Source of the DNA: Chloroflexota bacterium
GTDB lineage: Bacteria > Chloroflexota > Dehalococcoidia > Lucifugimonadales > UBA826
Length of the DNA: 34,414 nucleotides
Assembly: GCA_002722155.1 (NCBI GenBank)
Contig: PBKS01000010.1
Location: 1 to 34,414 of the forward strand
Direction: 5' to 3'
The translations under genes and the position numbers were made by a program. Positions 1-19,402 of the stretch are shown here, one piece after another; the stretch's first letter is position 1, and the number at the start of each line of letters is the position of its first letter. The notes under the pieces are model-generated. The model was not told the DNA's origin and did not search any database. It saw nothing but the letters and a program-made list of their open reading frames with translations.

Positions 1-120
1 ATACTACCTCCCATTCCGCCCATCATACTACCTCCCATTCCGCCCATCATACTACCTCCCATTCCGCCCATCATACTACCTCCCATTCCACCCATCATAC
101 TATCTCCCATCATTCCTCCC
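1..120 (-). repeat. 24-bp in-frame tandem repeat encoding MMGGMGGS units
   Basis: Three perfect 24-bp copies (1-24, 25-48, 49-72), a fourth with one change (73-96, A for G at 90) and a degenerate fifth (97-120) lie at the left edge. On the minus strand each copy encodes the octapeptide MMGGMGGS in the kinase frame. The array continues beyond the window, so its full copy number is unknown. The unit is a multiple of three, so gain or loss of copies by slippage would change protein length without breaking the frame. Confidence 0.95.
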
Positions 121-3100: not shown

Positions 3101-5528
3101 TAGATACCGACCATAAAGAAGTGCCATATTGAGAAAAACCAGAAATAGGGACTATGAAACTGACATTTTCTTCGTCCTCTGATAATGTATTTGCCACTAC
3201 TGGTGCCCAAGTCTGGGAACCATCATCAAATCGACTAAACTCAACCGACCAGACATGGCCCGCCCAAGTACCATCTTCTCTAGCAGCGAAATGTGACTTT
3301 GGAATATTAAAAGATATTAAACTAGTCAATCCTTTTTCTGTGAATCCTTCGGAGTCCACCTGAACATATGTAAGGATGTCCCGATCTGACCGAGAATCGA
3401 GAACTGGTGGAGTAACATCAGTCAAGGTTATTGTCCCTGCAGCTACTTCAGATGAGTTCAAAGATTTTATCGTCACAGAGGTAAAATCTATAACAGAAGT
3501 CGCGTCCACCTCTGGCCTGGACCAAATTCCACTTCCTTCCTCTCCATCGCCCGCCATCGGTAAGTACATTTGAGCCCAGATTTGAGGATGAACATATTCA
3601 GAAAAGTTTGCTACAAAAGAATCATCCTGTGCGAGCATATCTTCAATGGATTGATAATCCCAAACGGCACCTTGGACAATGGCATTCTTAGCCTTTCCGT
3701 CTGTTAAATCCCCGTTTCCTACTATTCCTGCATAAATATTGGCAGTCATCTGACTATCTGCTTTGGCCATATGGGATACCAGCAAACCTGAATTGTATTC
3801 ATCCGCTTCTAGCAAAGCGATAATCTTGGCCTTAATTTCCTGTCCAAACCCACTAGTATTCGCATCAACAAATATTGCTCCGGCGGTCGTAGGGTCTGTT
3901 GCAATAAATTGCTGCCATATTGAAATGCTGTCAACAGAAGTTGTTCCGAGTATTTCGGACGCAAGTGCCTGATCTTCATAAGCTACTGAGAGTAGCGCTT
4001 TTGCTATGGAGCCTTCACCACCAGGGTTCGACACTGCCTCATTTACTAATTGGGCAATTGCCAAATCATCATTTAAAGCAGCCTCAACAAACATCACTTT
4101 TAAGGATTCACTGTTTGAACCTTCAACGGCATCTTCGAGAAAAGTTGAAACCTGAGATACATTCTCATTAATTAAGGATGTAAAGATAATGCCAGCATCT
4201 GCTGGATCTGAAACCGTAATTGCACTAAGCAATCCTTCCAAACGCAATGGGTCTGCAGCACCTACAGATAACAGAAACTGAGATCCCAGAGTTTGATTTT
4301 CACTATGAATATCAGACATCACTGCGCCGGCAAAGGCCGGATCGAGGTCATTTATCTGGTTCATACCTGTAACTGCACCAACCGGGTTTTCAGTGAAAGT
4401 TATTGATAAATCGTTTGAAGCTTTCTGGATTCCTTCTGGATCTGCGACAACACCTGTGGCCCAGCTAGGATCTGTGATATCGGCTGCTATACCTGTCGCC
4501 AGTCCAACAGCTCCTGAACCTTGGCTCATAAAGAAAAATCCTCCACCCCCAATTATCACCAACAAAGCCACGATAGCTCCTGCCGGCATCAGCCACTTAG
4601 GCATACCTCCACCACCAGTAGCACCACCACCTGTGGTGTTTGGTTTATCAAGGACCTGCGTCGCAAGGACTTTAGGCATAACCCTAGTACGTGCCACATC
4701 TTGGGGACCTTCAGCCAATATAGTTGCTATTACTTGCAAATCATTGATCATTTCATCAGCGGTCTGATATCGCTGTTCCCTATCTTTGGTCAGTGATTTG
4801 ACTAATAAATCTTCAAGTTGCTCTGGAAATTCATCCATGTGAGTTGCAATTGGTTCATGAGCCTCATTTATATGCCCATTAAAAATCTCGAAAGTGCTCT
4901 TACCTAGAAATGGTGTTGATCCTGTAAGAACTTCGTATAAAAGACACCCAAGAGAATATAAGTCTGATCTACCGTCTATAGCATCGGAACCTTGTATCTG
5001 TTCCGGGGACATGTACAAAGGGGTACCAACAGTCGTGTTCTCACTGGTCATTGAATCTAAAGTTTCAGCAGAAGCGATACCAAAGTCAGTTAACTTCACT
5101 TCCCCTGCGTCATTTAACAGGACATTAGCCGGCTTTATATCACGGTGTGTTATTCCAGCATTGTGTGACACTTGGAGCGCCGAGGCGATCTGTTGAACAA
5201 CTGTAATGGCTCTTTGTAGAGGGAGAGTTCCTCCTCTTTCCAGTATCCTTTCCAAGTTTTCAGTCACAAACTCGGTCACAATGTAATGCTGACCAGCCTC
5301 CTCGCCATGGTCATACACTTCGACCACATTGGGGTGTTGAATAGTGGCCATGATGGATGCTTCTCTCTGGAATCTGTCTAAAAACTCCCCGTCCGACGCC
5401 GACCGAGCCAAAACTTTAATTGCAACTATCTGACCTGAGGAGGGATCTTGGGCCCTGTAGACGGCACCCTGACCTCCTTCTCCAACCATTTCAATTACTT
5501 GGTATCCACCTATTTCTTTTAAATTCAT
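1..5528 (-). CDS. Giant transmembrane Ser/Thr protein kinase with Ig-like ectodomain and Met-Gly repeat tail (C-terminus beyond left edge)
   Basis: The reading frame from the ATG at 5528 stays open to the left edge (about 1842 codons), so the gene is partial. Residues ~9-275 form a eukaryotic-like (Hanks-type) kinase: glycine loop GEGGQG at ~16-21, catalytic HRDIKPAN from H128 with D130, DFG at D148, then the GTPLYMSPEQ activation segment. A Gly/Pro linker and one hydrophobic helix (~313-335) follow. The outer part has a helical region (~345-650), a segment resembling a bacterial pre-peptidase C-terminal domain (~936-1037), several Ig-like/big-domain modules (~1040-1760), and a Met/Gly-rich tail from ~1788. 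It should phosphorylate cytoplasmic Ser/Thr targets in response to something bound outside. The divergent response regulator and nearby PP2C phosphatase fit a signalling locus. No clear Shine-Dalgarno precedes the start. Kinase identity is firm; the ectodomain labels are by eye. Confidence 0.93.
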   Translation of the reverse strand, partial: MNLKEIGGYQVIEMVGEGGQGAVYRAQDPSSGQIVAIKVLARSASDGEFLDRFQREASIMATIQHPNVVEVYDHGEEAGQHYIVTEFVTENLERILERGGTLPLQRAITVVQQIASALQVSHNAGITHRDIKPANVLLNDAGEVKLTDFGIASAETLDSMTSENTTVGTPLYMSPEQIQGSDAIDGRSDLYSLGCLLYEVLTGSTPFLGKSTFEIFNGHINEAHEPIATHMDEFPEQLEDLLVKSLTKDREQRYQTADEMINDLQVIATILAEGPQDVARTRVMPKVLATQVLDKPNTTGGGATGGGGMPKWLMPAGAIVALLVIIGGGGFFFMSQGSGAVGLATGIAADITDPSWATGVVADPEGIQKASNDLSITFTENPVGAVTGMNQINDLDPAFAGAVMSDIHSENQTLGSQFLLSVGAADPLRLEGLLSAITVSDPADAGIIFTSLINENVSQVSTFLEDAVEGSNSESLKVMFVEAALNDDLAIAQLVNEAVSNPGGEGSIAKALLSVAYEDQALASEILGTTSVDSISIWQQFIATDPTTAGAIFVDANTSGFGQEIKAKIIALLEADEYNSGLLVSHMAKADSQMTANIYAGIVGNGDLTDGKAKNAIVQGAVWDYQSIEDMLAQDDSFVANFSEYVHPQIWAQMYLPMAGDGEEGSGIWSRPEVDATSVIDFTSVTIKSLNSSEVAAGTITLTDVTPPVLDSRSDRDILTYVQVDSEGFTEKGLTSLISFNIPKSHFAAREDGTWAGHVWSVEFSRFDDGSQTWAPVVANTLSEDEENVSFIVPISGFSQYGTSLWSVSTSVTGISGSQLSIDQIDVSPLGDGELEVTATVTNRSPNAVIRDLSLIVDGTPEYSTTVTVESQSVVQVSAELYMEAGMRDIALGNYVTFYENLRVAGSGGDVSGSDLASLGAVCPSETDISDNSIDYGDEISSKIDCAGDIDSWVFAGRQGDMVTIQMKAGSGSALDAAIDLVSPNDKIVKSDDDSTEALMPPANALDSEITSYELRFDGQYKILSKGAGTGDYNLLVLSSDSNVPEAPATPMLQAADDTGKYNDDGVTNKDYELNFDIERTSNLGNKPSIRLWRGNDIEIGSCEPDDYEGTCTIEVNGLSEGEHIIYATAVNEMGISGPRSDSLSITIDMDIEPPSEPDLTVGSDTGEETDDDLTSDNEPTFSGSGEPYATVKIIDNAATQLGSATVSSTGLWTVTADEDELADGTHVIYAQLIDDAGNESELSDSLEITIDTEAPTRMSAPKANQNGEFSGRSDPYTRITLYNDGEEVYSIMTESNGDWVFSDNDLPRGESYLSVAATDAAGNEGQLSVETRHDKNGGDPSGPGGGFDWFNVPPPIVDSMYGNDPQSEMWQETNNTDDPYPEFRGFGQPYMDVVLRANGQFLGESVVNAGGEWTIYPERGMQEGNYEITAELVDPASGSFGPSSDSLGIYIHSQGQKMAGGASDVSAPSPPVMIWYDQNSGRDISGTQTNSTNPYFEGNADPEVYVRVVANGYEIGEGYSDDTGRWTVFPEEEFQPGDYDVWAYAYNPNTPPGSQDDAYYSEDSRTVFLQIGVAGGGDIKPPYIEGMIVEDQYGNQKITDTAVTGFVGFRGRTQPGTEVHVYANGKEVAHVDVESDGRWTGWSSHMMKEGDYALTAVAKDWNTGNESDESEPYWVEITGAERPVVYGARDMWGDFSLEADASIAGAIMFGGTAGPESMIEVLANGEVIAYSGTGPDGGDWETGPSPESCLPPGRHKITAYAYAQGTIQSEESEPVYIEVFGENKQACEMMKNMMESGSTMMGGGMMGDSMMGGMGGSMMGGMGGSMMGGMGGSMMGGMGGS

Positions 5529-7468: not shown

Positions 7469-8398
7469 ATGTTTTCTAGTATATCGACCATATTAGACAT
7501 AATTATATTCGTTTTATCAGGCTTTATTGTCTCCAGTACAGTTGCAGCCGTCGTATTTGTAGTTTGGACGTTTGGAAAAATGAATGAACGTTCAAACACA
7601 AAAGAGCTATTAGATACAATAAATAGTACTTCAAAAAAAACCAATACATCTTTGGCATCAAATACGCTAGATAAAAATGAGGAGGTAATTAGGGCTGCTA
7701 TAGCTATTGTAGAAAGTTATGGGTTGTCGGTCTCTGGAAATAAAACTGTTAATTATGCTCCTGACGCTTCAGCAAGAGATGACTTTAACAAAACCCGAAC
7801 ACAATCTAGTTCTAGGGATCATTCTTTCATCCCAGTAAACAGCAATGAAAAGATGTTATTGCAGACTGGTCATATTCATATGAAACATGGTGATTTTTCC
7901 TCTGCGATCCAGGATTACACTAACGCCATCATTGCCAACCCAAACTCCGCCGGTGCCTATAACGCCCGAGGTATGGCTAATAGGAAGAAGAGAGATTTTC
8001 ACGCCGCGTTACAAGATTACAATATTGCCTTAAGTCTTCATAATAACCTAGCAGCCACCTACAACAACCGAGGGGTTATATATATGGAAATAAGGCAAAT
8101 AGAAGCTGCCTTGAATGATTTCGATAAAGCTCTTAGCATAGAACCGAATAATTCCTATGGTTACTGCAATAGGGCAGTTGCTTACAATTACATGAGAGAC
8201 TTCAACAAAAGTATAAGTGAAAGTACCCTAGCTGTAGAAATAAATCCTCAACTCCCTGAAGCGTATGTAGTAAGGGGGATAGCAAAGGTGCAAATGGGAG
8301 CTGTTTCAGCCGCAGACCTCGATTTTGAGGTCGCAGAATCTTTGGGATATAAGCGAATAGACATAGAAGAACGTCTCGTAGCACTTAAGAAAGTTTGA
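7469..8398 (+). CDS. Membrane-anchored TPR-repeat protein
   Basis: The 309-residue protein starts with one hydrophobic helix (~8-36), then a polar linker (~37-125) and at least four tetratricopeptide repeats (~128-300). Typical TPR residues are visible: AIQDYTNAIIANPNSAGAYN, ALQDYNIALSL, ALNDFDKALSIEPNN and SISESTLAVEINPQ. TPRs bind partner proteins, so this is probably a membrane-tethered scaffold. The stop codon overlaps the TTG start of the prepilin peptidase, so the two are probably cotranscribed and translationally coupled, hinting at a role in assembling or maturing the surface filament. Only a weak ribosome site precedes the start. The partner is unknown. Confidence 0.85.
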   Translation: MFSSISTILDIIIFVLSGFIVSSTVAAVVFVVWTFGKMNERSNTKELLDTINSTSKKTNTSLASNTLDKNEEVIRAAIAIVESYGLSVSGNKTVNYAPDASARDDFNKTRTQSSSRDHSFIPVNSNEKMLLQTGHIHMKHGDFSSAIQDYTNAIIANPNSAGAYNARGMANRKKRDFHAALQDYNIALSLHNNLAATYNNRGVIYMEIRQIEAALNDFDKALSIEPNNSYGYCNRAVAYNYMRDFNKSISESTLAVEINPQLPEAYVVRGIAKVQMGAVSAADLDFEVAESLGYKRIDIEERLVALKKV

Positions 8399-8949
8399 TC
8401 CATACTACTTTTGCTTTACGGAATCCTGTATGGGGAATATTCGCCTTTGTATCGATATTGGGAGCGAACAGTTTCTGCGTAGGTAAGGATCTATTTCAAA
8501 TCGCCATTCTTTGCGGATATTGCATCATCCTTTACCTGATAGCAATTTTAGATCATTCAAAAAATACAATCCCTAACAAACTCACCCTGATTCCCCTTCC
8601 AATTGTTTTCGTTCTTAGTTACTTCTCGCCGGATTTGTACGAACTTTCAAACACAGAACATTGGTGGATATCGCCTCTGGCAGGAGGAATAATATCTGGT
8701 GCAATATTTGGTCTATGCTACTACATACCAAAAGCCGAACTTGGTGGCGGGGACGTAAAGCTTGCTGTGCTGATAGGATGCATTTGTGGATTTCCTGTAT
8801 GTTTGGCCAGCTTACTTCTCGGAATGATAATTTTTGCTACAAAGCAGTCAATTAGTCGACGCACTATGAAAGTTCCTACCATATCTCCTCTAGCACCGTA
8901 CCTTTTTGCCGGAACTTGGATTTCTTTAATAGCCGCCCAGCAAATATAA
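8395..8949 (+). CDS. Type III signal (prepilin/pre-archaellin) peptidase, A24 family
   Basis: This is a 184-residue polytopic membrane protein. A24 aspartyl peptidases use two aspartates at the membrane face. Here D53 in AILDHSKNTIPN and D120 in ELGGGDVKL occupy these places; the second matches the GxGD signature. The size is that of a stand-alone peptidase lacking the methylase domain of bacterial PilD. It would cleave class III signal peptides such as DRKG/ITGLE of the archaellin at 17725-18369, the role played by ArlK/PibD in archaea or TadV in Tad systems. The TTG start at 8395 overlaps the preceding TGA. It ends 1 bp from the convergent histidine kinase. Family assignment is strong; the substrate is inferred. 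Confidence 0.85.
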   Translation: MIHTTFALRNPVWGIFAFVSILGANSFCVGKDLFQIAILCGYCIILYLIAILDHSKNTIPNKLTLIPLPIVFVLSYFSPDLYELSNTEHWWISPLAGGIISGAIFGLCYYIPKAELGGGDVKLAVLIGCICGFPVCLASLLLGMIIFATKQSISRRTMKVPTISPLAPYLFAGTWISLIAAQQI

Positions 8950-8950
8950 A

Positions 8951-10087
8951 TTAGGCGTCCAGAAAGTACCTATTAGTACGAAGTTTTATATTTTCTGAAG
9001 TTTCTCTGCTTATCGGAATAGTGCCGACAACCTTAGTGCCTTTTCCTTCTTCCGAATTGATATCAACGTATCCCCCCACTCTCTCTGCTCTCAATTTCAA
9101 ATTTAGCAGCCCAAAATGACCGGCTTCAGGGACATTTTTTATGTTCGAGCGGCTGAAACCAATTCCATTGTCTTCGACAGAAAATGATATCCCTTCTTCA
9201 ACCCAAATAATTTCCGCACTGATGAGGTTTGCGTTAGCATGCTCCACAGAATTTAACACTGACTGTCTTATAATCTGATACAGGTCCATAGCTACAGGTC
9301 CTGGTAATCCCCCCTTATTTAACTCATTGGAGATATAGACTATTTCTATTGGGGATGACACAGGTTCTTTTTCAAGATCTTTAAAAAACACTTGAAGAGA
9401 CTCCTCTATCCCCACTACCGCAATTTGATCGTGCCCTTTTTCTCTTACTAGTTGTCTGAGGTTAACATCCGCGTTTTTGACCATTGATACCAGATTATCA
9501 ATGTCCTTAACAGTTTCTTGATCTTCAATTACCAATTTTAATAAGCCAAGATGCATCAAAATGGCACTCAATTCACTCATAGTTTGATCGTGCAAATCCG
9601 CAGCTAATTCCTTTCGCATATCATCTCTTCCTTGCTCAACCGCATCAAACTGCTCAATCCTTCGTAATCTATAAGCCATTATCTGAGATATTCGGGATAT
9701 AAACTCGAGAGCCGCGATTGGCCTCTTTTGAGACACCTCTGAAAATGAATCTCTGCTTATTCGAAATAATTTACATGCGGTTCTGGCTATGACACGAGCC
9801 GTTCTCGGTTGAGAATCTAAAAACGCGATCTCACCAATGACTGAACCCGACTTGATCCAGGCTACAGGTATCCATTTCTCATTCACCGGTACTTCTACTA
9901 ATGCCTCACCAGTGAGAAGCAAATCAATACTTGTGGACACATCACCGTAGCCAACAATGACTGTTCCTTGTGAAAAAAGTATTTCCTCTCCGTACTCCGA
10001 AAAATATTTTTTATATTTTTCTATTTCTGCATCAGTCAATATAGGTTCATCCAGAGAACCTGAACTATCGAAATAATTATCAGACAT
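8951..10087 (-). CDS. Soluble histidine kinase: cyclic-nucleotide-binding domain + HisKA_3 + HATPase
   Basis: This 378-residue protein has no membrane helix. Residues ~27-140 form a CRP-like cNMP-binding fold with the phosphate-binding cassette GEIAFLDSQPRTARV, which keeps the Glu and Arg-Thr expected to hold a cyclic nucleotide. The HisKA_3 dimerisation box follows, AADLHDQTMSEL, with phospho-acceptor H166. A HATPase domain ends the protein (N box around VEHAN, G box EDNGIGF). It would phosphorylate NarL-type regulators; one is encoded immediately upstream (21 bp gap) and another at 5812. GAAGG lies 7 nt before the ATG. It is the last gene of the minus-strand archaellum run, so it probably couples a second messenger to filament control. 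This last point is inference. Confidence 0.9.
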   Translation of the reverse strand: MSDNYFDSSGSLDEPILTDAEIEKYKKYFSEYGEEILFSQGTVIVGYGDVSTSIDLLLTGEALVEVPVNEKWIPVAWIKSGSVIGEIAFLDSQPRTARVIARTACKLFRISRDSFSEVSQKRPIAALEFISRISQIMAYRLRRIEQFDAVEQGRDDMRKELAADLHDQTMSELSAILMHLGLLKLVIEDQETVKDIDNLVSMVKNADVNLRQLVREKGHDQIAVVGIEESLQVFFKDLEKEPVSSPIEIVYISNELNKGGLPGPVAMDLYQIIRQSVLNSVEHANANLISAEIIWVEEGISFSVEDNGIGFSRSNIKNVPEAGHFGLLNLKLRAERVGGYVDINSEEGKGTKVVGTIPISRETSENIKLRTNRYFLDA

Positions 10088-10108
10088 GCGAGTACCTTCG
10101 AACTGATT

Positions 10109-10774
10109 TTAGTCTGTTGATAGGGAAACGCATAAGTTCAGAAATGCTATCGTAGAATTGGCCTGAGTAATCAAATAATCATCCCCTGAAACATTTAATT
10201 TTTCCTCGAGCAATCTTTGGATAACTTCCACGTCCTCCGGTGAAGATTGCAAGTCAGTCGCAATCTCTTGAACAGTCATACCTTTGCATCCCCTGTAAAT
10301 CACCTCCAATTCTCTAGAAGACAAATGTCCTGAATCGGAAGCATGCCGCTCGTAATATCCGATTAATTTTTCTATCAGGACATTATCAAGTATCAGATGT
10401 CCTTGCATGACTTTTCTCACGACTCTAATTAATTCTCCTATGTCATCCAGAGAATTCTTTAAAACATATGCTTTTGATTTCGAGTCCGTTTCGATCAAGT
10501 CCTTTACGTAGGACCAATCATCGTAGGCTGACACAACTACAATCGAAGTGTCCGGATTATTCTCTCTAATAGTTTTACTAGCAGAAATGCCATCAAGTCT
10601 CGGCATACGTATATCTAGTACAGCGACATCCACATCTAGTTCAGCGCATTTATTTACAGCTTCTAGGCCATCTTCACAGACGGCTGCAACTGCAAAATCA
10701 GCTTGGGTTTCAAGTACACGCTTATAAGCCGTACGGATGAAAGGAGAATCATCTGCTATGAGAATATTTGCCAT
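10109..10774 (-). CDS. NarL-like response regulator with degenerate HTH
   Basis: The 221-residue protein begins with a receiver: acidic pair in LIADDSPF, phospho-acceptor Asp in AVLDIRMPRLDG, and lysine in AYVLKNS. The C-terminal region (from ~150) starts like a LuxR helix-turn-helix (LSSRELEVIYRGCKGMTVQEIATDL), but the recognition helix is poor, with acidic residues where DNA-contacting ones are expected (SSPEDVEVIQRLLEEKL). It may bind DNA weakly or act through protein contacts. It lies between the acidic gene and the cNMP-domain histidine kinase, forming an evident kinase-regulator pair within the archaellum operon. Confidence 0.88.
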   Translation of the reverse strand: MANILIADDSPFIRTAYKRVLETQADFAVAAVCEDGLEAVNKCAELDVDVAVLDIRMPRLDGISASKTIRENNPDTSIVVVSAYDDWSYVKDLIETDSKSKAYVLKNSLDDIGELIRVVRKVMQGHLILDNVLIEKLIGYYERHASDSGHLSSRELEVIYRGCKGMTVQEIATDLQSSPEDVEVIQRLLEEKLNVSGDDYLITQANSTIAFLNLCVSLSTD

Positions 10775-10786
10775 TTTATTTAATCG

Positions 10787-11434
10787 TTAATTCCTTGTTA
10801 ATAAGCCAGAAACTTCTTTTATTTCATTTCGCAGTTGCTCTATAGAAACTGTCCCATATTTATCAAGCAACTGGCGAACTTGAGGCCGCACCTCTATCTT
10901 CTCTGCAAACAAGTCTCCCATGTCAGATTCCTCGGGAATTACACTCTCAACACTTTTTGCAGTCACTAAAGATTCTTCTTCTGCAGGATCCTCTTCCACA
11001 TTATCTGGTATATCCTCCATGTTCTGATCTTCGCTATCATCTAGGTCATCCAAGGAGACGGTCTGGAAATTAACTGGTTTTTCAAGTGGCTTAGATTCTA
11101 TGACGACATCCTGAATATCCTCTATATCATCGTTTAGCGCATCTGAAGCAACGACAGTATTTTGCAGTAGTGGAGGTGTACCCGCTTCGAGGGTAGGCTC
11201 AAATACATCTTCATAGATTTCCGGGTCCAATTCGCTTAGATCCCATAAAGCATCAGGGACTGGATCAGCACTTTCGTTGGTTGTTTCAATTGGTTCTGAC
11301 CCTATATCAATGGGACTCTGGTCAATTGTCTCACTCCTACCTCTACTATCAAGGTCGAGTTTGAACGATTTCATGACATTCCCAAATTTGTCATAAATTG
11401 TTCTACGAATCGAATCCATGCCATCCATCATCAT
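10787..11434 (-). CDS. Acidic low-complexity protein following arlJ (unknown)
   Basis: I do not recognise this 215-residue protein. It has a short basic N-terminal helix (~6-25), a long acidic Asp/Glu/Ser/Pro-rich middle that looks disordered (~30-175), and a helical C-terminal segment (~178-212). It has no signal peptide or membrane helix. The ATG overlaps the arlJ stop as ATGA, so the two are translationally coupled, which argues it belongs to the archaellum machine. By position and character it could be a cytoplasmic adaptor comparable in role to ArlC/D/E in Euryarchaeota, but I see no sequence similarity strong enough to say so. Confidence 0.7.
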   Translation of the reverse strand: MMMDGMDSIRRTIYDKFGNVMKSFKLDLDSRGRSETIDQSPIDIGSEPIETTNESADPVPDALWDLSELDPEIYEDVFEPTLEAGTPPLLQNTVVASDALNDDIEDIQDVVIESKPLEKPVNFQTVSLDDLDDSEDQNMEDIPDNVEEDPAEEESLVTAKSVESVIPEESDMGDLFAEKIEVRPQVRQLLDKYGTVSIEQLRNEIKEVSGLLTRN

Positions 11435-13065
11435 ATAACTCCTGCAGATATTACCTTGTACATTCCCATTACTAATCCAGACGAACCATTTTCTGGAGTC
11501 GACAGTAAAGCCGCCGTGACTTTAGGCACCACAAACATAACAACGGCTGATGTCAAACATGTTACAGCAAAAAAGCTGATGATTTTGAGATTATTACCAC
11601 CTTCTGAAAACTTTGGGGCTAAGGCGTTGGCAATGGTCAGTATCGCAACCGCCAATATTATGGTTGTTTGAAGTGTCGAGACGTTCCCCATCTGGAAAAC
11701 ATCAACAGATGCACACAACTCCTCAGGACTCGGCAATTTGATTCCGGCAGTATCTACCCCCGGTGGCACAACAACTTGGTTCATACAGTTTTCTCTATCA
11801 GAGACACCTACTATGGATCCTAATTTACTGTTAAAGCTAATAATTATCTCTAAAACAAAAACCAGTATCAGTGCCATTACCGAATGCATCGTTATTGTCA
11901 AAAAAGTGAAAGTAGAGGAAGTCAATTTGCGTTTAGCCCTAAGTTCAGAAATGTTTTGGGCGTAATCTGAACAAATTTCCCCAATCTGACCTGGGTTACA
12001 TCCCACTTCTACTCCATCGACAAACATACTTGAAGTCCGAGAAACCAACTCACTACCAGTTTCTCTGCTAAAAGTCTCCCAACATTCCGCAGAAGGCAGG
12101 CCAGATTCTAATCTAGTTCTCAGGCGTTCCAAAGGATCTTTTAAATATTGATAAGAATTAGTGTCTATTCGCTTGAGAGCTTCAGTCAAAGTCACTCCGC
12201 CTGAGCCAGCGATACTTCCAATAGCCCTTAGGAAAACCGGCAATTCTTGGTCAATATTAGCGACACGAGAAGCATCTCGCATTGCTAGAAAAGCGGAAGG
12301 TATTAGGCTTATACCGGTGAAAGCAAACACTGAACCAGATGCTGTAACAGGGCTAACACCTCTCTCCAATAACATTAAAAATCCCAAGATACCCAATGCC
12401 AGACCTGCTGGGCCACATGATATGAATAGAAACTTTGCCAGCTTCCGGTCCGGTGTTGTTCCAGAAACCGGGTCATAGGTAATCGTTTCAAACGGAGCTA
12501 CCTTGTAAATTAAAAAAACTCCGACAGATGTAACCCCGGCCAAGGTAAAAAGCATTAAATATATAAAGGATGCACTTGTAGATCCCAATAGACTTGAAAC
12601 TTGTGATACGACCATAATGAGTGTAACTGCAACTAAAACGGCTGCATACGCGTCAGTCCATTTCCGTAAATTTTCAACGTTTCGTTCGTAATCATTCCCG
12701 TAATGTTCAGCCTCAGCCCGGGCCTCTTGAAGAACGAAATCTGATTCTGAACTACCGGATGATATAGATGCTGAAAACCTGAGTAAAAGACTTTTTATCC
12801 GAGGCGCTTTGGCCCTTTGAGCAACTGCCTGAAAAGCTCTTGTATACTCAACACCCATGGACCGCGCCATTAGGTTTATATATTCAAAAAATACTGAAGT
12901 GAGATACCTTTGCCGTCCACAATATTCGAGCAATCGATCTCTAGTGACACCACCTCGAGATAGTATCGCCATGTAGGTTAATTGAGAAAATAGGTCAAAT
13001 CCAATTACTTGGTTATCAGAAGAGACCTTCTCTATTTGCTTGCGCGAGGACGTTGTGGAGTTCAT
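11431..13065 (-). CDS. arlJ: Archaellum/type IV filament membrane platform protein ArlJ (FlaJ)
   Basis: This 544-residue polytopic protein has about seven to nine hydrophobic segments (for example near 140-190, 210-265, 385-415, 465-485 and 500-525) and two T2SSF-like cytoplasmic helical domains. The second domain carries IAGSGGVTLTEALKRI, which resembles the G-x-x-L-x-x-A-L motif of this family. Size and layout fit archaeal ArlJ better than the shorter ~300-residue TadB or TadC. ArlJ anchors the ATPase ArlI and the filament base in the membrane. The ATG lies inside the 3' end of arlI (50-bp overlap), and the stop overlaps the next gene as ATGA. Family call is strong; choice of ArlJ over a pilus homologue rests on the neighbours. 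Confidence 0.88.
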   Translation of the reverse strand: MNSTTSSRKQIEKVSSDNQVIGFDLFSQLTYMAILSRGGVTRDRLLEYCGRQRYLTSVFFEYINLMARSMGVEYTRAFQAVAQRAKAPRIKSLLLRFSASISSGSSESDFVLQEARAEAEHYGNDYERNVENLRKWTDAYAAVLVAVTLIMVVSQVSSLLGSTSASFIYLMLFTLAGVTSVGVFLIYKVAPFETITYDPVSGTTPDRKLAKFLFISCGPAGLALGILGFLMLLERGVSPVTASGSVFAFTGISLIPSAFLAMRDASRVANIDQELPVFLRAIGSIAGSGGVTLTEALKRIDTNSYQYLKDPLERLRTRLESGLPSAECWETFSRETGSELVSRTSSMFVDGVEVGCNPGQIGEICSDYAQNISELRAKRKLTSSTFTFLTITMHSVMALILVFVLEIIISFNSKLGSIVGVSDRENCMNQVVVPPGVDTAGIKLPSPEELCASVDVFQMGNVSTLQTTIILAVAILTIANALAPKFSEGGNNLKIISFFAVTCLTSAVVMFVVPKVTAALLSTPENGSSGLVMGMYKVISAGVI

Positions 13066-14806
13066 AAAAATTCGTAGTGTCCCGATCCGATAAACGTTTT
13101 AAAACTTCGGCCCTTCTTTCTAGCTCACCATATATATTTCTATATTCGTCCGGAGGGAGTCCTCGTTTGGAGGCTACCACCTGTTCCAATAGATACGTAT
13201 TCATATAGCCTGGAAATTCAAATTCATCTGTAGCCGGATTCCATTTGAAAACTTCTATAAATCCAAAGGAATTACTCTCAGGGTCATATTCAATAATCTC
13301 GCTAATGCTAAGACATCTTCTACCAGGGCTACCGTCGGGAAGCCTGACAGCGCTCATAATCACCACCATATTTAAATTATCCACGTAGGTTTTGGGAACA
13401 TTGATTGGGTTTCCAGTTAAACGTTGAATCAATTTCTCCACTGAGGCAGCATGGAACGTTGCCATACAAGCATGACCAGTTTGCATAGCTTGAAATGCTA
13501 TAGCTCCTTCCGCACCTCTTATTTCTCCTATTACTATTTCTTCGGGCCTTTGTCGCAAAGCAGCGACCAATAGATCAAACATAGTCACAGAAGCACTATT
13601 CTCTCCCCCTCCTCTCACAACTTCTCTGATCCAATTTTGATGAGGTACCTGTAACTCTGGGGTATCTTCAATACTTACTATCTTCGCATTAGGAGGTATG
13701 AACGTACTTATGGCGTTCAAAATCGTTGTTTTTCCTGAAGCCGTCTCCCCAGACACAAAGGTATTCATCCCTTCACTTAACATCAAAGAAATATAGGCAG
13801 CCATTTCATACGTCAAGGTTCCAAACTTAATCAAATCTAAAATGCTAAGGGGAGTTGCACTAAATTTTCTTATGGTGAAATTGCTTCCCCGTCGCGAAAC
13901 ATCTCCGCCATAAACAATGTTAATCCTAGAGCCGTCCGGCAAGGTAGAATCCACAATGGGCTCACGAATGGTCACAGGTCTTCCTATCTTTTCTGACAAC
14001 TGTATTACATATTGATCCAATTCTTCCGAGTCAGAAAATTCGATGCTGGCCTTCAGCCCTCCAAATATTTTATGCTCAATATACAGTGGGCCTACTCCAC
14101 TGCAGCTTATATCCTCTATGTAAGGATCCTCTACAAGTGGATCCATAACTCCCATGCCAGCCTTTTCTCTCCGCATCAAATATTTAATTGCTTGAAACTG
14201 ATCGTCTGTTAAATCGACCGACTTAGACACTTTCTTAGAAGAAGAATCTGCACGGCCGCAAATTTCATCCACAGCATTCAAAATTACTTCAAGTCGCTCT
14301 TCAGATCCATCAGCCGCACGAAGCTCATCAATGTAGTCCATCAACTGAACATCAATGTCATTAACTATTTCCTCAACCCCCGGGGCCAGTGATGGCTCAA
14401 CGGCCAGATAATAATCTCTTGTATCTTCGGGATCGTGAACCACATGTATGAATACCCCTCCACCGACCGGATATACCAAATTACGTTTCTGCTGAGTGTC
14501 AGAACCCCTACTCACAAACCCAAGATATTCTGGTATGCCAATCTCCTCAACAGGCAGTTTGGAAACATAAGCTCCTAAATGTCTAAATTGTTCGGCCTGT
14601 TCTCTAAAATCGGATGGCAATTTGGCCATCACTTTCTCGTCCAAAACGAATTTACTTGAATTACCAACCCCGGCATTTTGTAAAAACCCTTGAATCCCCT
14701 CTTTTAATGAGACTGCATGGCCGTTTGTGGAGCCATTCGCACTCTGGTCACCACGAGATTTACCCATTTGGACTATAACTTTAAAGTTTTTGAGATTGAA
14801 AGCCAT
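13016..14806 (-). CDS. arlI: Archaellum motor/assembly ATPase ArlI (FlaI), GspE superfamily
   Basis: The 596-residue secretion-type ATPase has an N-terminal domain of ~230 residues and a C-terminal RecA-like motor. Walker A SGETASGKTT lies near residue 352, followed by an Asp box SIEDTPEL, Walker B EEIVIGEIRG and His box GHACMATFHAAS. In archaea ArlI both builds and turns the filament, working with ArlH and ArlJ. The KFGTLTYEMAAYISLMLSEGMN region and N-terminal organisation are typical of archaeal-type FlaI/TadA ATPases. It is flanked by arlH (13 bp gap) and arlJ (50-bp overlap). TadA or a pilus ATPase is the alternative, made unlikely by the archaellin and arlH neighbours. Confidence 0.93.
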   Translation of the reverse strand: MAFNLKNFKVIVQMGKSRGDQSANGSTNGHAVSLKEGIQGFLQNAGVGNSSKFVLDEKVMAKLPSDFREQAEQFRHLGAYVSKLPVEEIGIPEYLGFVSRGSDTQQKRNLVYPVGGGVFIHVVHDPEDTRDYYLAVEPSLAPGVEEIVNDIDVQLMDYIDELRAADGSEERLEVILNAVDEICGRADSSSKKVSKSVDLTDDQFQAIKYLMRREKAGMGVMDPLVEDPYIEDISCSGVGPLYIEHKIFGGLKASIEFSDSEELDQYVIQLSEKIGRPVTIREPIVDSTLPDGSRINIVYGGDVSRRGSNFTIRKFSATPLSILDLIKFGTLTYEMAAYISLMLSEGMNTFVSGETASGKTTILNAISTFIPPNAKIVSIEDTPELQVPHQNWIREVVRGGGENSASVTMFDLLVAALRQRPEEIVIGEIRGAEGAIAFQAMQTGHACMATFHAASVEKLIQRLTGNPINVPKTYVDNLNMVVIMSAVRLPDGSPGRRCLSISEIIEYDPESNSFGFIEVFKWNPATDEFEFPGYMNTYLLEQVVASKRGLPPDEYRNIYGELERRAEVLKRLSDRDTTNFYELHNVLAQANREGLF

Positions 14807-14819
14807 TTAACCCCTCTGT

Positions 14820-15524
14820 TTAGGCCTTAGCCCGAGAAACCGGAACTATACGAATCCCCATTCCTGGTTCCACTTCAAAACCTAAAATGTTACCTGTCCG
14901 CATGTCAGCTCCACGTATTTTCGCGACTTCCATAGTTTTAACCAGGTTGGTTCCTGATGCCGTCACCTGTAATCTCAAATAGGCGTCACATATAGACCTG
15001 ACTCTAAGAAGGAAATCTTCATCGAAAGCATTTTCATGAACAGTACACGCAATAACTTGACCCCTTTCGCAAACATTTTTCATTTCATTGAAAAAATCTT
15101 GTATTTGTTCTCCTCCAGCTCTTGAAACAAATGTAGTAAGAGAGTCAATAACTATCATTTGCGACGAATCTTGTTTCCATATGTGTTCTGATAGTAATTT
15201 AAAAAACAAATCGGGATCTTCATTTTCAGCCGATGAGCTTAAAGGAAAAATTTGCAAGTCGTTGAGCAGGAAATAATCCGTAGCATCCTGCCCTAAACTT
15301 TCCATCTGTCTAAGCAATGCATGTACATTTTGTTCTGTGGTGTAAATGCTCGCTCTATGACCCGCATTTAGAGTTCCCCATAGCAGTTGTTGGGCAAAGG
15401 TACTCTTACCCGAAGCGTCTTGACCTTCAATGAGCATGACCGTGTTATATGGAATTCCTCCACCAAGTCTTCTGTCAATTTCCGTACTGCCAGTTGTTAT
15501 CACTGATACTTCTTCAGTAGTCAT
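14820..15524 (-). CDS. arlH: ArlH (FlaH), KaiC/RecA-superfamily archaellum ATP-binding protein
   Basis: This is a 234-residue single RecA/KaiC-type domain, the usual ArlH length. Walker A GQDASGKST lies at residues 34-42 and Walker B QMIVIDSLTTF near 120. The N-terminus STEIDRRLGGGIPYNTVMLIEG is typical of KaiC-like proteins. ArlH binds ATP, forms a ring at the base of the archaellum and regulates ArlI; it is a marker that distinguishes archaella from other type IV filament systems. GAGGA precedes the ATG by ~8 nt. It directly precedes arlI. A stand-alone KaiC paralogue is the alternative, unlikely given position and size. Confidence 0.92.
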   Translation of the reverse strand: MTTEEVSVITTGSTEIDRRLGGGIPYNTVMLIEGQDASGKSTFAQQLLWGTLNAGHRASIYTTEQNVHALLRQMESLGQDATDYFLLNDLQIFPLSSSAENEDPDLFFKLLSEHIWKQDSSQMIVIDSLTTFVSRAGGEQIQDFFNEMKNVCERGQVIACTVHENAFDEDFLLRVRSICDAYLRLQVTASGTNLVKTMEVAKIRGADMRTGNILGFEVEPGMGIRIVPVSRAKA

Positions 15525-15601
15525 TTGACTGTCCTCGAATACTTATGCTTGCCGTATACAATCTTTTTAATCTTCTCACAATACTACAGGGTTTAACATC
15601 A

Positions 15602-16594
15602 CTATTGCATCGGACATATCGAAGGAAAGGAATATGAATTGTCTACGCCATTAGGTAAACCTATTATAAGTGTTCCAGAAACCTGAGGTTCTCCATTAAG
15701 GTTGGCAATTAATGTCATGGTTTCTCCTGGATTGAATGTACCAGTCTGATAATTATCATCTGCAATTGAATATGTCCATTGATTAGGTTGTAGTGGCGGA
15801 GTCCCTTTGACCGGGATTTTCATGGCCGTATTATTAGCATCTGTATTGAGAATCACAAAAATATCCAACTGTTCCTCAATTTCAGCAGTATCAAATGCGG
15901 TGCCACCCGTGTTTTTTATTTTGAAGTCAGTGACACACGCCACCTCGGACAAATCTTGTGTTTCAACCCCATCGATAGTTAACAGAACTTTATATCCTCC
16001 TTCATTACGAGGAGTGGTCTGGGTAGCTGACCATATTTTTAACCTATACGGATCTATTTCTGTGGCAGTTCCGGTCAAAATAAAATCTGGCGACACCCAA
16101 GAATATACATCTCCTGTCAAATCATGCCATGGATCCCCCCAGGAGTCTGTTTCATTACTTATGACATCTCCCATTCCATAGTAATCGACCGATACTTGGG
16201 TGCTACCTCCATTATCCCTATTACCAGGTTCCAAAGGCGAAGTCATAATCTTGTTCAACTTCAACCTGGCTGTAGCATCAGCCGGTCCTAGAAACCAATA
16301 ACAGTCGATTTCATTGGTAACAGTTAAATCCCCAGTCCTTGCTAGCCCAGGATATATACGTTTACATCCCTCTACATCATTTGGGTTATGCTCCGTCACT
16401 TCTTCGTAACTAGCCTTGAAATCCTGGGAGCTAGAAATCTCAATCTTTGTACTCACTTTATCTGCGATTGTCTCTGCAGCATTTTTGTTAGCGACCGCCA
16501 GGAGTTCCGCTCCTATTTGGTTGGCTTTGAACATAACCACAACTGCTGTTAGAAGTACCGAAATTATGAGTAGTGCAGAGATACTTGTTCCCAT
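15602..16594 (-). CDS. arlF: ArlF-like archaellum stator/filament-base protein, unusually long
   Basis: The 330-residue protein begins MGTSISALLIISVLLTAVVVMF, a short N-terminal hydrophobic helix typical of ArlF/pilin-like proteins, followed by an amphipathic stretch and a beta-rich outer domain. Archaeal ArlF is usually about 130-170 residues, so about half of this protein is extra. The C-terminal part (NTGGTAFDTAEIEEQLDIF and GTPPLQPNQWTY) looks like the beta-sandwich segment of ArlF/ArlG. It lies between arlG-like and arlH, the crenarchaeal gene order. No clear Shine-Dalgarno is seen. The assignment rests on N-terminus, fold impression and position; it could instead be a minor archaellin. 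Confidence 0.65.
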   Translation of the reverse strand: MGTSISALLIISVLLTAVVVMFKANQIGAELLAVANKNAAETIADKVSTKIEISSSQDFKASYEEVTEHNPNDVEGCKRIYPGLARTGDLTVTNEIDCYWFLGPADATARLKLNKIMTSPLEPGNRDNGGSTQVSVDYYGMGDVISNETDSWGDPWHDLTGDVYSWVSPDFILTGTATEIDPYRLKIWSATQTTPRNEGGYKVLLTIDGVETQDLSEVACVTDFKIKNTGGTAFDTAEIEEQLDIFVILNTDANNTAMKIPVKGTPPLQPNQWTYSIADDNYQTGTFNPGETMTLIANLNGEPQVSGTLIIGLPNGVDNSYSFPSICPMQ

Positions 16595-16624
16595 ATCAAA
16601 TTAGCAGCCCGTGTTGGTAAATCT

Positions 16625-17134
16625 CTATTGGCCGTACTGGAACTGATATACAGATTTAATTCCGTTAGCAGTGTTGAATTCAAAATTATAAGTTTTTACA
16701 GCCGATTCCAGTTGATTTGCATCACTAAGAGTCACAGCAATCTCGATGGTTTCACCTTCGATCCAGTACCCAGTTTTATCTGTCCCATCTTTTTTCTTAG
16801 CAACCCAGCTGCCAGGACAGGTTGCATTGTTGTGACACAGAACCACAAATTTAGATTTATCGATTGAGGAGATATAAATATCAGCTTGGTCCAAAAAACT
16901 GACCTCTGTGCTGCCAACATTTTTTATCCATGCTCGAACCAAAGTAGGGGTATTGGGTGGAGCGTGAACCGCGGTTATTTCTACGTCGGTCTCTATTTGT
17001 TGAGCTAAGTCTCTCTGTGATTCAACAACAGACTGGCTACTACTACCAACTATCGGAGTTAGGGTTGTCATTACCAACCCAGCCGCGGTAACTCCTGCTA
17101 TAACCAGTAGAGCAGTGACAATAACCTTATCCAA
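16625..17134 (-). CDS. arlG: ArlG-like archaellum stator protein
   Basis: The 169-residue protein has one N-terminal hydrophobic helix (~4-25) and a beta-sandwich domain outside. ETDVEITAVHAPPNTP followed by VRAWIKNVGSTEVSFLDQADIYI matches the ArlG pattern (I-T-D-I-x-I, then Y-x-K-N-x-G-S). ArlG and ArlF form the stator contact between motor and S-layer or envelope in archaea. It starts at TTG (17134) with GAGGT about 7 nt upstream, which decides the start. It lies 35 bp downstream of the coiled-coil gene and 30 bp before arlF-like. Two cysteines (CHNNATC) may form a disulfide. Confidence 0.78.
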   Translation of the reverse strand: MDKVIVTALLVIAGVTAAGLVMTTLTPIVGSSSQSVVESQRDLAQQIETDVEITAVHAPPNTPTLVRAWIKNVGSTEVSFLDQADIYISSIDKSKFVVLCHNNATCPGSWVAKKKDGTDKTGYWIEGETIEIAVTLSDANQLESAVKTYNFEFNTANGIKSVYQFQYGQ

Positions 17135-17169
17135 CTTATTTACCTCAACCGATCAGGAACTATAGAAGT

Positions 17170-17700
17170 TCAGGAAGCCTCTATAGAGATACAAACTAAT
17201 TTGTGTAAATCGGAAATCACTTGTGAATAAACTGATGGTGACATAGGATCGTCACCAGAATACATTTCATCCAACATTGACATATTCTTTAATATAAATT
17301 TCGACATCAATGGGCTAATCATCGCTGAATTTTCGTATGCCTCCAAAATAGGAAACAGTCTCGCTGCAGTTAGACCTTTTTCTTTGGCTCCCCCCATCCA
17401 GGCAAGAAGATCATTAAGAGTACCTTTGTTATTTTGTTCTGTTGACAGGTCTAAACCTGCTTCAGAACCAAAATAAGTCCTAGGAACTCCGTTAGCTACT
17501 GAAGGAGACGCGGCTGGTGAAGCTGCGACCGGTGATGCTGCTGGCTGAACCAGCTGCTGAGACGTAGCTAGAACATCAGACTTTCGCAGCCAGGTGTCCC
17601 GCATATCTATCAGAATCTGCCTAATCTCAGTCTTAAGGATATTTACCTCATCCTCAAGGACTTGGATTCTCTGTTCTAATTGCGAATTAGAAGTTGTCAT
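17170..17700 (-). CDS. Coiled-coil protein in the arlX / arlC-D-E position (ArlD/E-like C-terminus)
   Basis: The 176-residue protein has no membrane helix. Residues 1-40 form a heptad-rich coiled coil (LEQRIQVLEDEVNILKTEI), then an Ala/Pro/Ser linker (~50-75) and a helical C-terminal domain (~85-176). The LLAWMGGAKEKG and ARLFPILEAYENSAMISPLM segments resemble the short domain of euryarchaeal FlaD/E (a tryptophan segment followed by a Y-x-x-x-x-x-I-S motif). Those proteins connect the archaellum switch to chemotaxis; crenarchaea have the ring protein ArlX here instead, which carries a membrane helix that this protein lacks. The gene lies 24 bp after arlB. The similarity is by eye and needs a profile search. 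Confidence 0.6.
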   Translation of the reverse strand: MTTSNSQLEQRIQVLEDEVNILKTEIRQILIDMRDTWLRKSDVLATSQQLVQPAASPVAASPAASPSVANGVPRTYFGSEAGLDLSTEQNNKGTLNDLLAWMGGAKEKGLTAARLFPILEAYENSAMISPLMSKFILKNMSMLDEMYSGDDPMSPSVYSQVISDLHKLVCISIEAS

Positions 17701-17724
17701 ATATCACCATCTTTATGAAAGCGA

Positions 17725-18369
17725 CTACTGTAGATTCATAACGTCAACTAATTCCGGGGGTGTCTTCCTGTTTATAATAAGAGAACCACCGGTGGATGGA
17801 ATGATCTCAATAGTAAAAGTCGTGTTAGACCCGAGGTTAGTTATTACCACGGGATTTGCTTGTGGATTTGGTTCAGGGCGCAATGTGAACTGTATCTCAG
17901 CTACTTCCCCTTCCTGAAGGAGATTCGGCAGGGCGCGATCACCGACTATTTTAGTTATGTTTATATCTTCGATTATGCCCTCTGTTCCTGTCGTCATTCC
18001 CCCATCAGTGGCATACCTTTGATTTTGATCAACATAAATAAAGGCTAAATCCGCTGCATTTATCGAGGAACCTGTGGCTCCGGTCGCTGGTTGTAACTGA
18101 ACAAAAATATTTTGAACTCTAGCAGGGGCAGCAGGGTCTCTCGTAGCGACTATCGCTCCTTTAGGTGCAAAGGTTGAACTGGCTTCTGCGATACCGGCCT
18201 GAGCTGTAGTTTTGGCTTTCTCAGTGCTAAACAATCCAGTTGTCATAACGGTGAAAGCAAAAACCGCGGCAACAACAATGAAGGCAATCAGTATGATTGC
18301 TGTCTCAAGACCTGTGATTCCCTTCCTATCGGAATAGAGATTCTGCATCTGAACAAACAAACTCTTCAT
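17725..18369 (-). CDS. arlB: Archaellin (archaeal-type flagellin), ArlB family
   Basis: This 214-residue preprotein has a class III signal peptide: a polar leader with R15-K16-G17, then mature ITGLETAIILIAFIVVAAVF, giving cleavage after G17 and a conserved Glu at +5 (E22). The downstream segment TGLFSTEKAKTTAQAGIAEASS and the C-terminal FTIEIIPSTGGSLIINRKTPP are characteristic of archaellins, which polymerise through the N-terminal helix. It is the only archaellin in the window. GGAG lies 8 nt before the ATG. It is first in the close-packed arl run. An ordinary bacterial type IV pilin would not share the C-terminal motif or the neighbours. Confidence 0.93.
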   Translation of the reverse strand: MKSLFVQMQNLYSDRKGITGLETAIILIAFIVVAAVFAFTVMTTGLFSTEKAKTTAQAGIAEASSTFAPKGAIVATRDPAAPARVQNIFVQLQPATGATGSSINAADLAFIYVDQNQRYATDGGMTTGTEGIIEDINITKIVGDRALPNLLQEGEVAEIQFTLRPEPNPQANPVVITNLGSNTTFTIEIIPSTGGSLIINRKTPPELVDVMNLQ

Positions 18370-18428
18370 AAGAATATCTCCGAGACTAACTTATATGTAA
18401 GGCCACTACCTTTGCAGAGGCATTACGG

Positions 18429-18465
18429 CCTATTCTAACAGCACCAACACCAATTTATGAATAGG
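18429..18465. promoter_or_regulatory. Inverted repeat upstream of archaellin
   Basis: CCTATTC (18429-18435) and GAATAGG (18459-18465) form a 7-bp inverted repeat with a 23-bp spacer. It lies between the SpoIIM-like gene and arlB, 60-96 bp before the arlB ATG, where a promoter or operator for the highly expressed filament gene is expected. I could not find a convincing -35/-10 pair. Confidence 0.3.
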
Positions 18466-18485
18466 TTAATAAATATTACTTATGT

Positions 18486-19355
18486 TTATAGAAACCCTAA
18501 CATGAATGGGGCCCAGAAATGTTCAACTACTGCAGCTACCACAACCATTCCAAAAGACACTACTGCGAGTACAACTACGGCATTTAAAACCTTAAAAAAT
18601 CTCGAATCAGTCGGCTTATATAAAGTAACTCCTCGGGAGAAGAAGATAGCTGCGAGAGAGCCACTTAGGTAAGCAAGACCTTCCAGAAGGACATGAGGAC
18701 TCAACGCGACGGTTGCGATAATTGCCAACATTACCGGACTGGCGGCAGCTGCCATATTCACTTTCACAGCGGTTACTAGGGTTATAGCCCAAACGCCTGC
18801 GTTCCAACCAAGGGCCATGCTAGTTCCTAGGCCTCTATAAATAAAAGCAAAAATAAAAAAGACAATCAGTACATAGGAATTTATCTTCAAGAAAGTCATT
18901 CCATGTGCAAACCTTTCGGGGGAAAGATCGGTGCTGGTGTAGGCCGTACCTCTATCCATTATAAAAGTGTACTGTTCCTGCAAAGTCGCCTGCGGCAGAA
19001 CAAGTCCCACAACAGCATAGGCAGAAACCATCCCGACAAATAATATTGTTACAGAAATTATGCTCTTGCGGTTGGCCTCCCATCCACTCATCCCCAAGTC
19101 CCAAATACGGTCTCGATTTATCCTCTGTATCTGATTAACACGTGGAACGATAGCCGCACATGCCAGGGCGATCGAAGCCAAACCAGCCTGAGGAATAGCA
19201 AAAGACATAGCTATGATAGAGCTAATCAAAACTGCTAAAAAAGCCTCAAACCCGATTAATATATTCCACCTACCATCAGAAGCGGCAGGGAAATGGTTAA
19301 AAATTGCCCCTAAAATAGATCCTGGCTCGTCCGAAGCCTGTATTTTCAATAACAT
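18486..19355 (-). CDS. SpoIIM/DUF95-like integral membrane protein upstream of archaellin
   Basis: The protein (~289 residues) has about six to seven hydrophobic segments. A C-terminal region (~155-240) with FLKINSYVLIVFFIFAFIYRGLG, then LGWNAGVW and SPHVLLEGLAYLSGS, fits the stage II sporulation M/DUF95 pattern (N-x-x-V, N-G-like turn, P-H-x-x-x-E). Such proteins occur widely in bacteria and archaea that do not sporulate; function is mostly unknown. It is the gene immediately before arlB on the same strand. The ATG at 19355 is preferred because GGGGTG lies 7 nt before it; the in-frame TTG at 19361 is too close. Link to the archaellum is by position only. Confidence 0.75.
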   Translation of the reverse strand: MLLKIQASDEPGSILGAIFNHFPAASDGRWNILIGFEAFLAVLISSIIAMSFAIPQAGLASIALACAAIVPRVNQIQRINRDRIWDLGMSGWEANRKSIISVTILFVGMVSAYAVVGLVLPQATLQEQYTFIMDRGTAYTSTDLSPERFAHGMTFLKINSYVLIVFFIFAFIYRGLGTSMALGWNAGVWAITLVTAVKVNMAAAASPVMLAIIATVALSPHVLLEGLAYLSGSLAAIFFSRGVTLYKPTDSRFFKVLNAVVVLAVVSFGMVVVAAVVEHFWAPFMLGFL

Positions 19356-19402
19356 ATCCAATCACCCCAATTAAAAGGCTGCTTACATAAAATCACTTAA
19401 CT

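Follow-up and report, generated by a model that had tools for sequence, protein, structure and literature searches.

A probably complete arl2-type archaellum operon with an enlarged ArlF stator protein in a SAR202 Dehalococcoidia chromosome

We analysed a 34,414-nucleotide stretch (the window) of contig PBKS01000010.1 from the Chloroflexota assembly GCA_002722155.1, and found that it very probably carries a complete archaellum (archaeal flagellum) operon of the arl2 type, belonging to the Chloroflexota lineage of these machines and residing in a marine Dehalococcoidia bacterium of the SAR202 group; the functions given below are carried over from studied archaella. The observations establish the gene set, the protein families and their order, an ancestry within a single clade, purifying selection and a chromosomal setting. 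Archaellum genes have been reported from cultivated SAR202 bacteria (PMC10444878) and from 243 Chloroflexota genomes; for one of these bacteria, Litorilinea aerophila, the filament structure was solved and swimming observed (PMC12488501). Since these reports date from 2023 and 2025, a bacterial archaellum as such is not new and would not surprise a specialist; the initial annotation was right to place such clusters in Chloroflexota but overstated the novelty of this one. The new points are the architecture of the stator, the failure to find CheW in any tested genome of the window's family and a conserved protein encoded after ArlJ. What holds this rotary motor of archaeal origin firmly in the bacterial envelope is stated to be unknown for most archaellated Chloroflexota, and the same report says so of archaellum anchoring in other peptidoglycan-making members of the phylum (PMC13319060).

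Gene content and identity of the operon

The minus-strand run extends from 18369 to 8951, in the order ArlB, ArlCDE-like protein, ArlG, ArlF, ArlH, ArlI, ArlJ, acidic protein, regulator and kinase. The features are as follows.

17725..18369 (-): ArlB, single-copy archaellin (PF01917 1.1e-22; TIGR02537 above cut-off; class III motif SDRKG/ITGLE, the slash marking the predicted cleavage site)
17170..17700 (-): ArlCDE-like protein, 176 amino acids (aa), by iterated hidden Markov model (HMM) linkage to the Methanosarcina gene at the same position
16625..17134 (-): ArlG, stator filament protein (PF01917 5.5e-10; NF052591 1.1e-7, below cut-off)
15602..16594 (-): ArlF, stator cap protein, 330 aa (FlaF fold match and profile match to FlaF in PDB)
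15929..16441 (-): ArlF insert, ~165 residues, predicted PPC/collagen-binding-domain-like beta-sandwich (alignment, model)
14820..15524 (-): ArlH, KaiC-like motor regulator (NF004723, 253 bits, cut-off 194)
13016..14806 (-): ArlI, motor ATPase (NF058587, 640 bits, cut-off 550)
11431..13065 (-): ArlJ, membrane platform, 544 aa (best NCBIfam model ArlJ NF004703, 3.5e-102; PF00482)
10787..11434 (-): unnamed acidic protein, 215 aa, right after ArlJ (position; conserved ~45-residue C-terminal motif)
10109..10774 (-): REC-HTH response regulator (PF00072, PF00196), after a 12-bp gap
8951..10087 (-): cNMP-binding/HisKA_3 histidine kinase, last gene of the run (PF00027, PF07730, PF02518)
8395..8949 (+): prepilin peptidase of the A24 type with a GGGD motif, convergent to the cluster (PF01478 7e-12)

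The initial annotation had placed archaellin, ArlG, ArlF, ArlH, ArlI and ArlJ on one strand with a prepilin peptidase alongside, and family or fold scores bore out each of these assignments. The archaellin signal motif it had read is likewise present: from direct inspection, the class III signal peptide of ArlB is predicted to be cleaved after SDRKG, ahead of ITGLETAIILIAF. Genome-wide, ArlB is one of only two PF01917 matches, and the peptidase adjoining the cluster is the only PF01478 match. For ArlG, the gene order and the start MDKVIVTALLVIAG are common to relatives. The window thus holds ArlI, ArlJ, ArlH, a class III archaellin, ArlF with ArlG, and a class III signal peptidase with predicted processing activity. 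Since the intergenic gaps from ArlB to the kinase are at most 77 bp and two adjacent pairs overlap (ArlI with ArlJ, and ArlJ with the acidic protein), the run looks like one operon with a single predicted transcript, and the position of the response regulator suggests that it is cotranscribed with the arl genes. A promoter scan returned sites no more frequently than in shuffled sequences.

We weighed whether the archaellum assignment could be mistaken and the locus encode a Tad or type IV pilus, as ArlI, ArlJ and the pilins belong to one superfamily with the pilus systems, and the TadA and GspE families match ArlI at lower scores. However, ArlI scored 640 bits as an archaellum motor and 157 bits as TadA, its best solved-structure match was Sulfolobus acidocaldarius FlaI (1.4e-129, versus 3e-43 for CpaF), and it was placed with archaeal ArlI in the tree. 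ArlH, ArlF and ArlG, which pili do not have, are present, and ArlH passes its archaellum model (253 versus 194 bits) instead of standing with unrelated KaiC proteins. A TadA/PilB-type ATPase was not found in the genome, where ArlI is the sole T2SSE ATPase detected (one PF00437 match). A pilus identity was rejected on these scores and has next to no probability, in line with the distinction drawn in the initial annotation.

The gene between ArlB and ArlG, called X in that annotation, was without a transmembrane segment on inspection and resembled ArlCDE rather than ArlX. Because PF04659 (ArlD/E family), run directly on the genome, gave no match, with the window protein included, its identity was traced through intermediates. 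An iterated HMM linked it to the same-position Methanosarcina gene, the Methanosarcina homologue in locus L106 lies above the PF04659 cut-off, and the window protein has an N-terminal coiled coil and a C-terminal DE-type domain that aligned with Methanosarcina proteins. By sequence, X is assigned as an ArlCDE-type switch/scaffold protein. In another locus (L063:1605-4331), a long stretch of charged, low-complexity sequence in the middle brings the ArlCDE-like protein to 908 aa.

Ancestry and chromosomal setting

In an ArlI tree with an outgroup, 50 Chloroflexota sequences formed one clade (Shimodaira–Hasegawa-like approximate likelihood ratio test, SH-aLRT, 99) beside Halobacteriota, with Sulfolobus remote on a long branch; this one Sulfolobus was the sole crenarchaeal sequence, and the support values come from a quick search. 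The ArlI+ArlJ tree agreed. A split of the Chloroflexota in its midpoint-rooted form was rejected as a rooting effect, because the archaeal branch separates no Chloroflexota sequences from one another, and these form one clade once an outgroup is included. As judged by sequence, the ArlI placement agrees with the Methanotecta origin of Chloroflexota archaella reported in PMC12488501.

The initial annotation had read the order B-X-G-F-H-I-J as crenarchaeal and as a pointer to the donor. The order itself is real, and the arlF/arlG order has long been used to tell crenarchaea from euryarchaea (PMC4307647), which would speak for a cluster derived from Crenarchaeota (Thermoproteota). However, the identical order is common in Halobacteriota arl2 clusters, including those of Methanosarcina, of the Methanophagales type and others, X is ArlCDE-like and not the membrane protein ArlX, and ArlI lies beside Halobacteriota in the tree. 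On these grounds, and with one crenarchaeal sequence in the tree, a crenarchaeal donor was rejected, and we regard it as highly improbable.

The window shares with L. aerophila and other Chloroflexota (PMC12488501) the arl2 order, arlG before arlF, an ArlCDE-type protein and the single origin beside Methanotecta-type archaea. It differs from them in that its peptidase adjoins the cluster whereas theirs lies outside, in having the ArlF insert and a regulator and kinase in the run, and in that no PilN/PilO-LysM match was found among the neighbouring genes scanned. 'Candidatus Lucifugimonas marina' (SAR202), as described in PMC10444878, belongs to the same superorder and has the flaGFHIJ order and an A24 peptidase; unlike the window with its single ArlB, it has many archaellins, six of them in tandem. 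With Halobacteriota arl2 archaella (Methanosarcina, Methanophagales and others), the window shares the gene order, including an acidic protein after ArlJ, and its nearest archaeal ArlI is found there.

The window is part of a 1.65 Mb metagenome-assembled genome (MAG; G000) of 25 contigs, in which no rRNA was found; its relatives by ArlI therefore served for taxonomic placement. The nearest ArlI genes (91-95% identity) belong to MAGs named Chloroflexi RS820, Dehalococcoidia PW3, UBA7891, UBA6495 and SAR202 OSU_TB12. Flanking genes are common on both sides up to the contig ends in loci L055, L056 and L057, and in part in L059. Since the same operon and flanks recur in MAGs of independent studies, the contig is not chimeric and the cluster is chromosomal; a chimeric or archaeal contig was rejected on these conserved flanks, and the cluster sits in a SAR202 Dehalococcoidia chromosome. 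The surroundings are bacterial, as initially annotated, with FabI-like, YchF and two-component (HisKA_3 kinase, REC-HTH regulator) genes, besides ammonium transporters and sulfopyruvate decarboxylase.

ArlH was found in 49 of 250 genomes of the same order and in six of the eight of the genus, and ArlJ in 56 of the 393 of the class. Within the order, genomes G190 (locus L048) and G084 (L047) have their ArlI in other branches of the tree, and the order thus holds several archaellum lineages; G190 further differs from the window in its short ArlF and its CheW genes.

A longer ArlH, of 356-494 aa, adjoins ArlI and ArlJ in loci L116, L119 and L124 and in the second matches of G802-G823. Neither archaellin nor stator genes were detected near the first three loci, and these perhaps represent a different type IV filament system. 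In L101, on a contig labelled Candidatus Fermentibacteria, an X-G-F-H-I-J cluster is almost identical to those of Methanosarcinales L117 and L122, and is probably misbinned rather than newly transferred.

The arl genes are maintained under purifying selection. Compared with close relatives, the ratio of nonsynonymous to synonymous differences (pN/pS) was 0.06 for ArlI, 0.04-0.06 for ArlH, 0.07-0.09 for ArlJ and 0.11 for the ArlCDE-like protein, and reached 0.2-0.36 for the ArlF core and 0.3-0.5 for its insert, all values being rough because synonymous sites are near saturation. The insert changed faster in two of three comparisons.

The enlarged stator cap protein ArlF

ArlF has no Pfam match by sequence. 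Its AlphaFold2 model (residues 42-325) matched S. acidocaldarius FlaF (4zbh; also 4p94), which has the same immunoglobulin (Ig) fold, with a Z score of 12.3 over 112 aligned residues, and a profile of the window ArlF and its relatives found FlaF in the PDB at 1.1e-08. Unlike FlaF, which binds the S-layer in that archaeon, the window ArlF contains ~165 extra residues between strand A and the remaining Ig domain, as located by alignment with the 174-aa relative from L033 and with archaeal ArlF, neither of which has the insert. In the model of the whole protein, the two outer parts matched FlaF, and residues 73-208 matched the PPC/collagen-binding fold of collagenases. Modelled alone, the insert matched the ColG collagen-binding domain (CBD; 1nqj) with Z 10.5 over 94 of 96 residues, slightly above other beta-sandwiches (PliG, Z 9.8; SIDT, Z 9.6), so that a PPC-like fold is likely while the family is not settled. 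One relative's ArlF matched PPC weakly, at 0.022.

ArlF measures 324-330 aa within the window's family and as much as 1285 aa among relatives. In Halobacteriota it spans 160-188 aa across 23 loci and 153-190 aa across a second set that overlaps these in part, none with an extra domain. ArlG showed no comparable extension in the listed loci, with lengths read from the lists.

Locus L061 (1461-8455) encodes three tandem ArlF of 546, 1285 and 497 aa. Pfam detected PD40 propeller repeats in the 546- and 497-aa proteins, inspection showed the same kind of repeat in the 1285-aa one, and, as in the window ArlF, the extra sequence is inserted after strand A and ahead of the Ig core. L060 (406-4298) also has a tandem pair: in one protein, of 923 aa, PD40 repeats come after the initial part of the Ig domain, and the other, of 357 aa, has a weak PPC match. 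In Anaerolineae, ArlF is 276-397 aa long and ends in cadherin-like repeats in the two proteins scanned, each having two at the C-terminus (L094:8244-9377 and L107:3017-4210; PF16184 1e-39 and 3.6e-27, respectively). Dehalococcoidales have an additional ArlF copy of 361-367 aa, and the ArlF of G821/G818 (L200:1-1431, L203:2-1426) carry C-terminal tandem repeats of ~190 residues with no Pfam family.

By analogy with the archaeal stator, we put at close to an even chance the idea that the insert lets the stator hold on to the bacterial envelope, as a substitute for the S-layer that ArlF binds in archaea. It would form part of a broader, tentative proposal, which we hold at somewhat below an even chance: that ArlF was rebuilt several times in Chloroflexota, after the archaellum had arrived there, for anchoring in a bacterial envelope, either through inserted domains (PPC-like ones or PD40 propellers) or through fusion at the C-terminus (cadherin-like and other repeats), that the window's family works without CheW, and that the acidic protein is an overlooked arl2 component. 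Extra domains are not described in the available main-text passages on ArlF and Chloroflexota. A competing explanation, likewise put at somewhat below an even chance, is that the archaellum works and the insert serves at the surface in adhesion or glycan binding, or acts as a spacer setting the height of the stator through a thicker envelope. PPC-like, cadherin-like and beta-propeller domains are indeed general adhesion or interaction modules, and the faster change of the insert than of the remaining ArlF, seen in two of three comparisons, fits this explanation. However, the extensions recur in ArlF, the sole component in contact with the envelope of archaea, and occupy either of two positions, with nothing comparable in ArlG in the loci listed. 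A stator refitted for the bacterial envelope is the most likely interpretation overall, with the anchoring role only putative; the extended ArlF proteins are concrete, testable anchor candidates and point to the part of the machine in which adaptation may have taken place.

The protein after ArlJ, control and predicted function

The 215-aa acidic protein had no Pfam or NCBIfam family match. Most of the Chloroflexota loci and many of the Halobacteriota ones have a counterpart at the same position. We compared profiles of their last 75 residues by hhalign, with unrelated proteins and column-shuffled profiles as controls. The window clade matched other Dehalococcoidia at an E value of 5e-7, the latter matched a group with a membrane helix at 5e-12, and Dehalococcoidia matched the Methanosarcina group at 5e-5, whereas the best control gave 0.019; the direct match of the window clade with Methanosarcina was weak (0.003). 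Homology with the archaeal counterparts is therefore probable, through intermediates. The available published passages on Chloroflexota archaella do not describe this protein, which may have been missing from the known inventory of arl2 archaella, also in archaea.

CheW was found neither in the window genome nor in the eight genomes tested from the same genus and family, which are up to 97% complete. Among 16 order relatives tested, only G821 and G190 had it; since the ArlH of G821 belongs to the window's broader group (60% identity), the absence is not universal there. The same published passages make no mention of such a lack in the window's genus or family. L055-L059 and L061 also have both the regulator and the kinase downstream of ArlJ, and L062 has the regulator. 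As no CheW was found, filament production is more likely to be under the control of the kinase/regulator pair than of a chemotaxis array, and the pair more likely sets expression than direction.

By analogy with studied archaella, much the most likely interpretation of the cluster is a functional archaellum of a type already known. The adjacent peptidase would trim ArlB, ArlI-ArlJ-ArlH would assemble and rotate the ArlB filament, ArlG and ArlF would form the stator, and the cell would swim; the PPC-like domain in the Ig fold of ArlF may grip the bacterial envelope instead of an S-layer, and the kinase/regulator pair may govern filament production. Several points weigh against this reading. On cultured SAR202 cells, no archaella were seen (PMC10444878). 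ArlJ falls under the strict cut-off of NF004703 despite its 3.5e-102; its placement is supported by synteny and by the ArlI+ArlJ tree. The MAG is 86% complete, which makes absences provisional. For ArlF, the mean predicted local distance difference test score (pLDDT) is middling (68 for the whole protein, 65 for the insert alone), the insert has no Pfam match by sequence, PF04151 (PPC) included, and a PPC-like fold does not by itself demonstrate that the wall is bound.

If the locus were a remnant, decaying or no longer rotating and retained as a pilus, this would fit the absence of visible archaella on cultured SAR202 cells and the failure to detect CheW across the window's genus and family. 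However, all genes are intact and under purifying selection, the stator genes are kept and elaborated, and rotation itself does not need CheW; we thus consider such a remnant improbable, if less so than a crenarchaeal donor.

Two further genes of the window deserve mention. At its edge, positions 3-5528 encode a serine/threonine kinase of >1842 aa, with about six bacterial Ig-like domains and a Met/Gly-rich tail, which runs off the window. Upstream of ArlB, positions 18486-19361 encode a 291-aa membrane protein, which had no Pfam or NCBIfam match, is 96% identical in relatives with a pN/pS of 0.03, and also lies near the archaellum cluster in loci L059 and L061.

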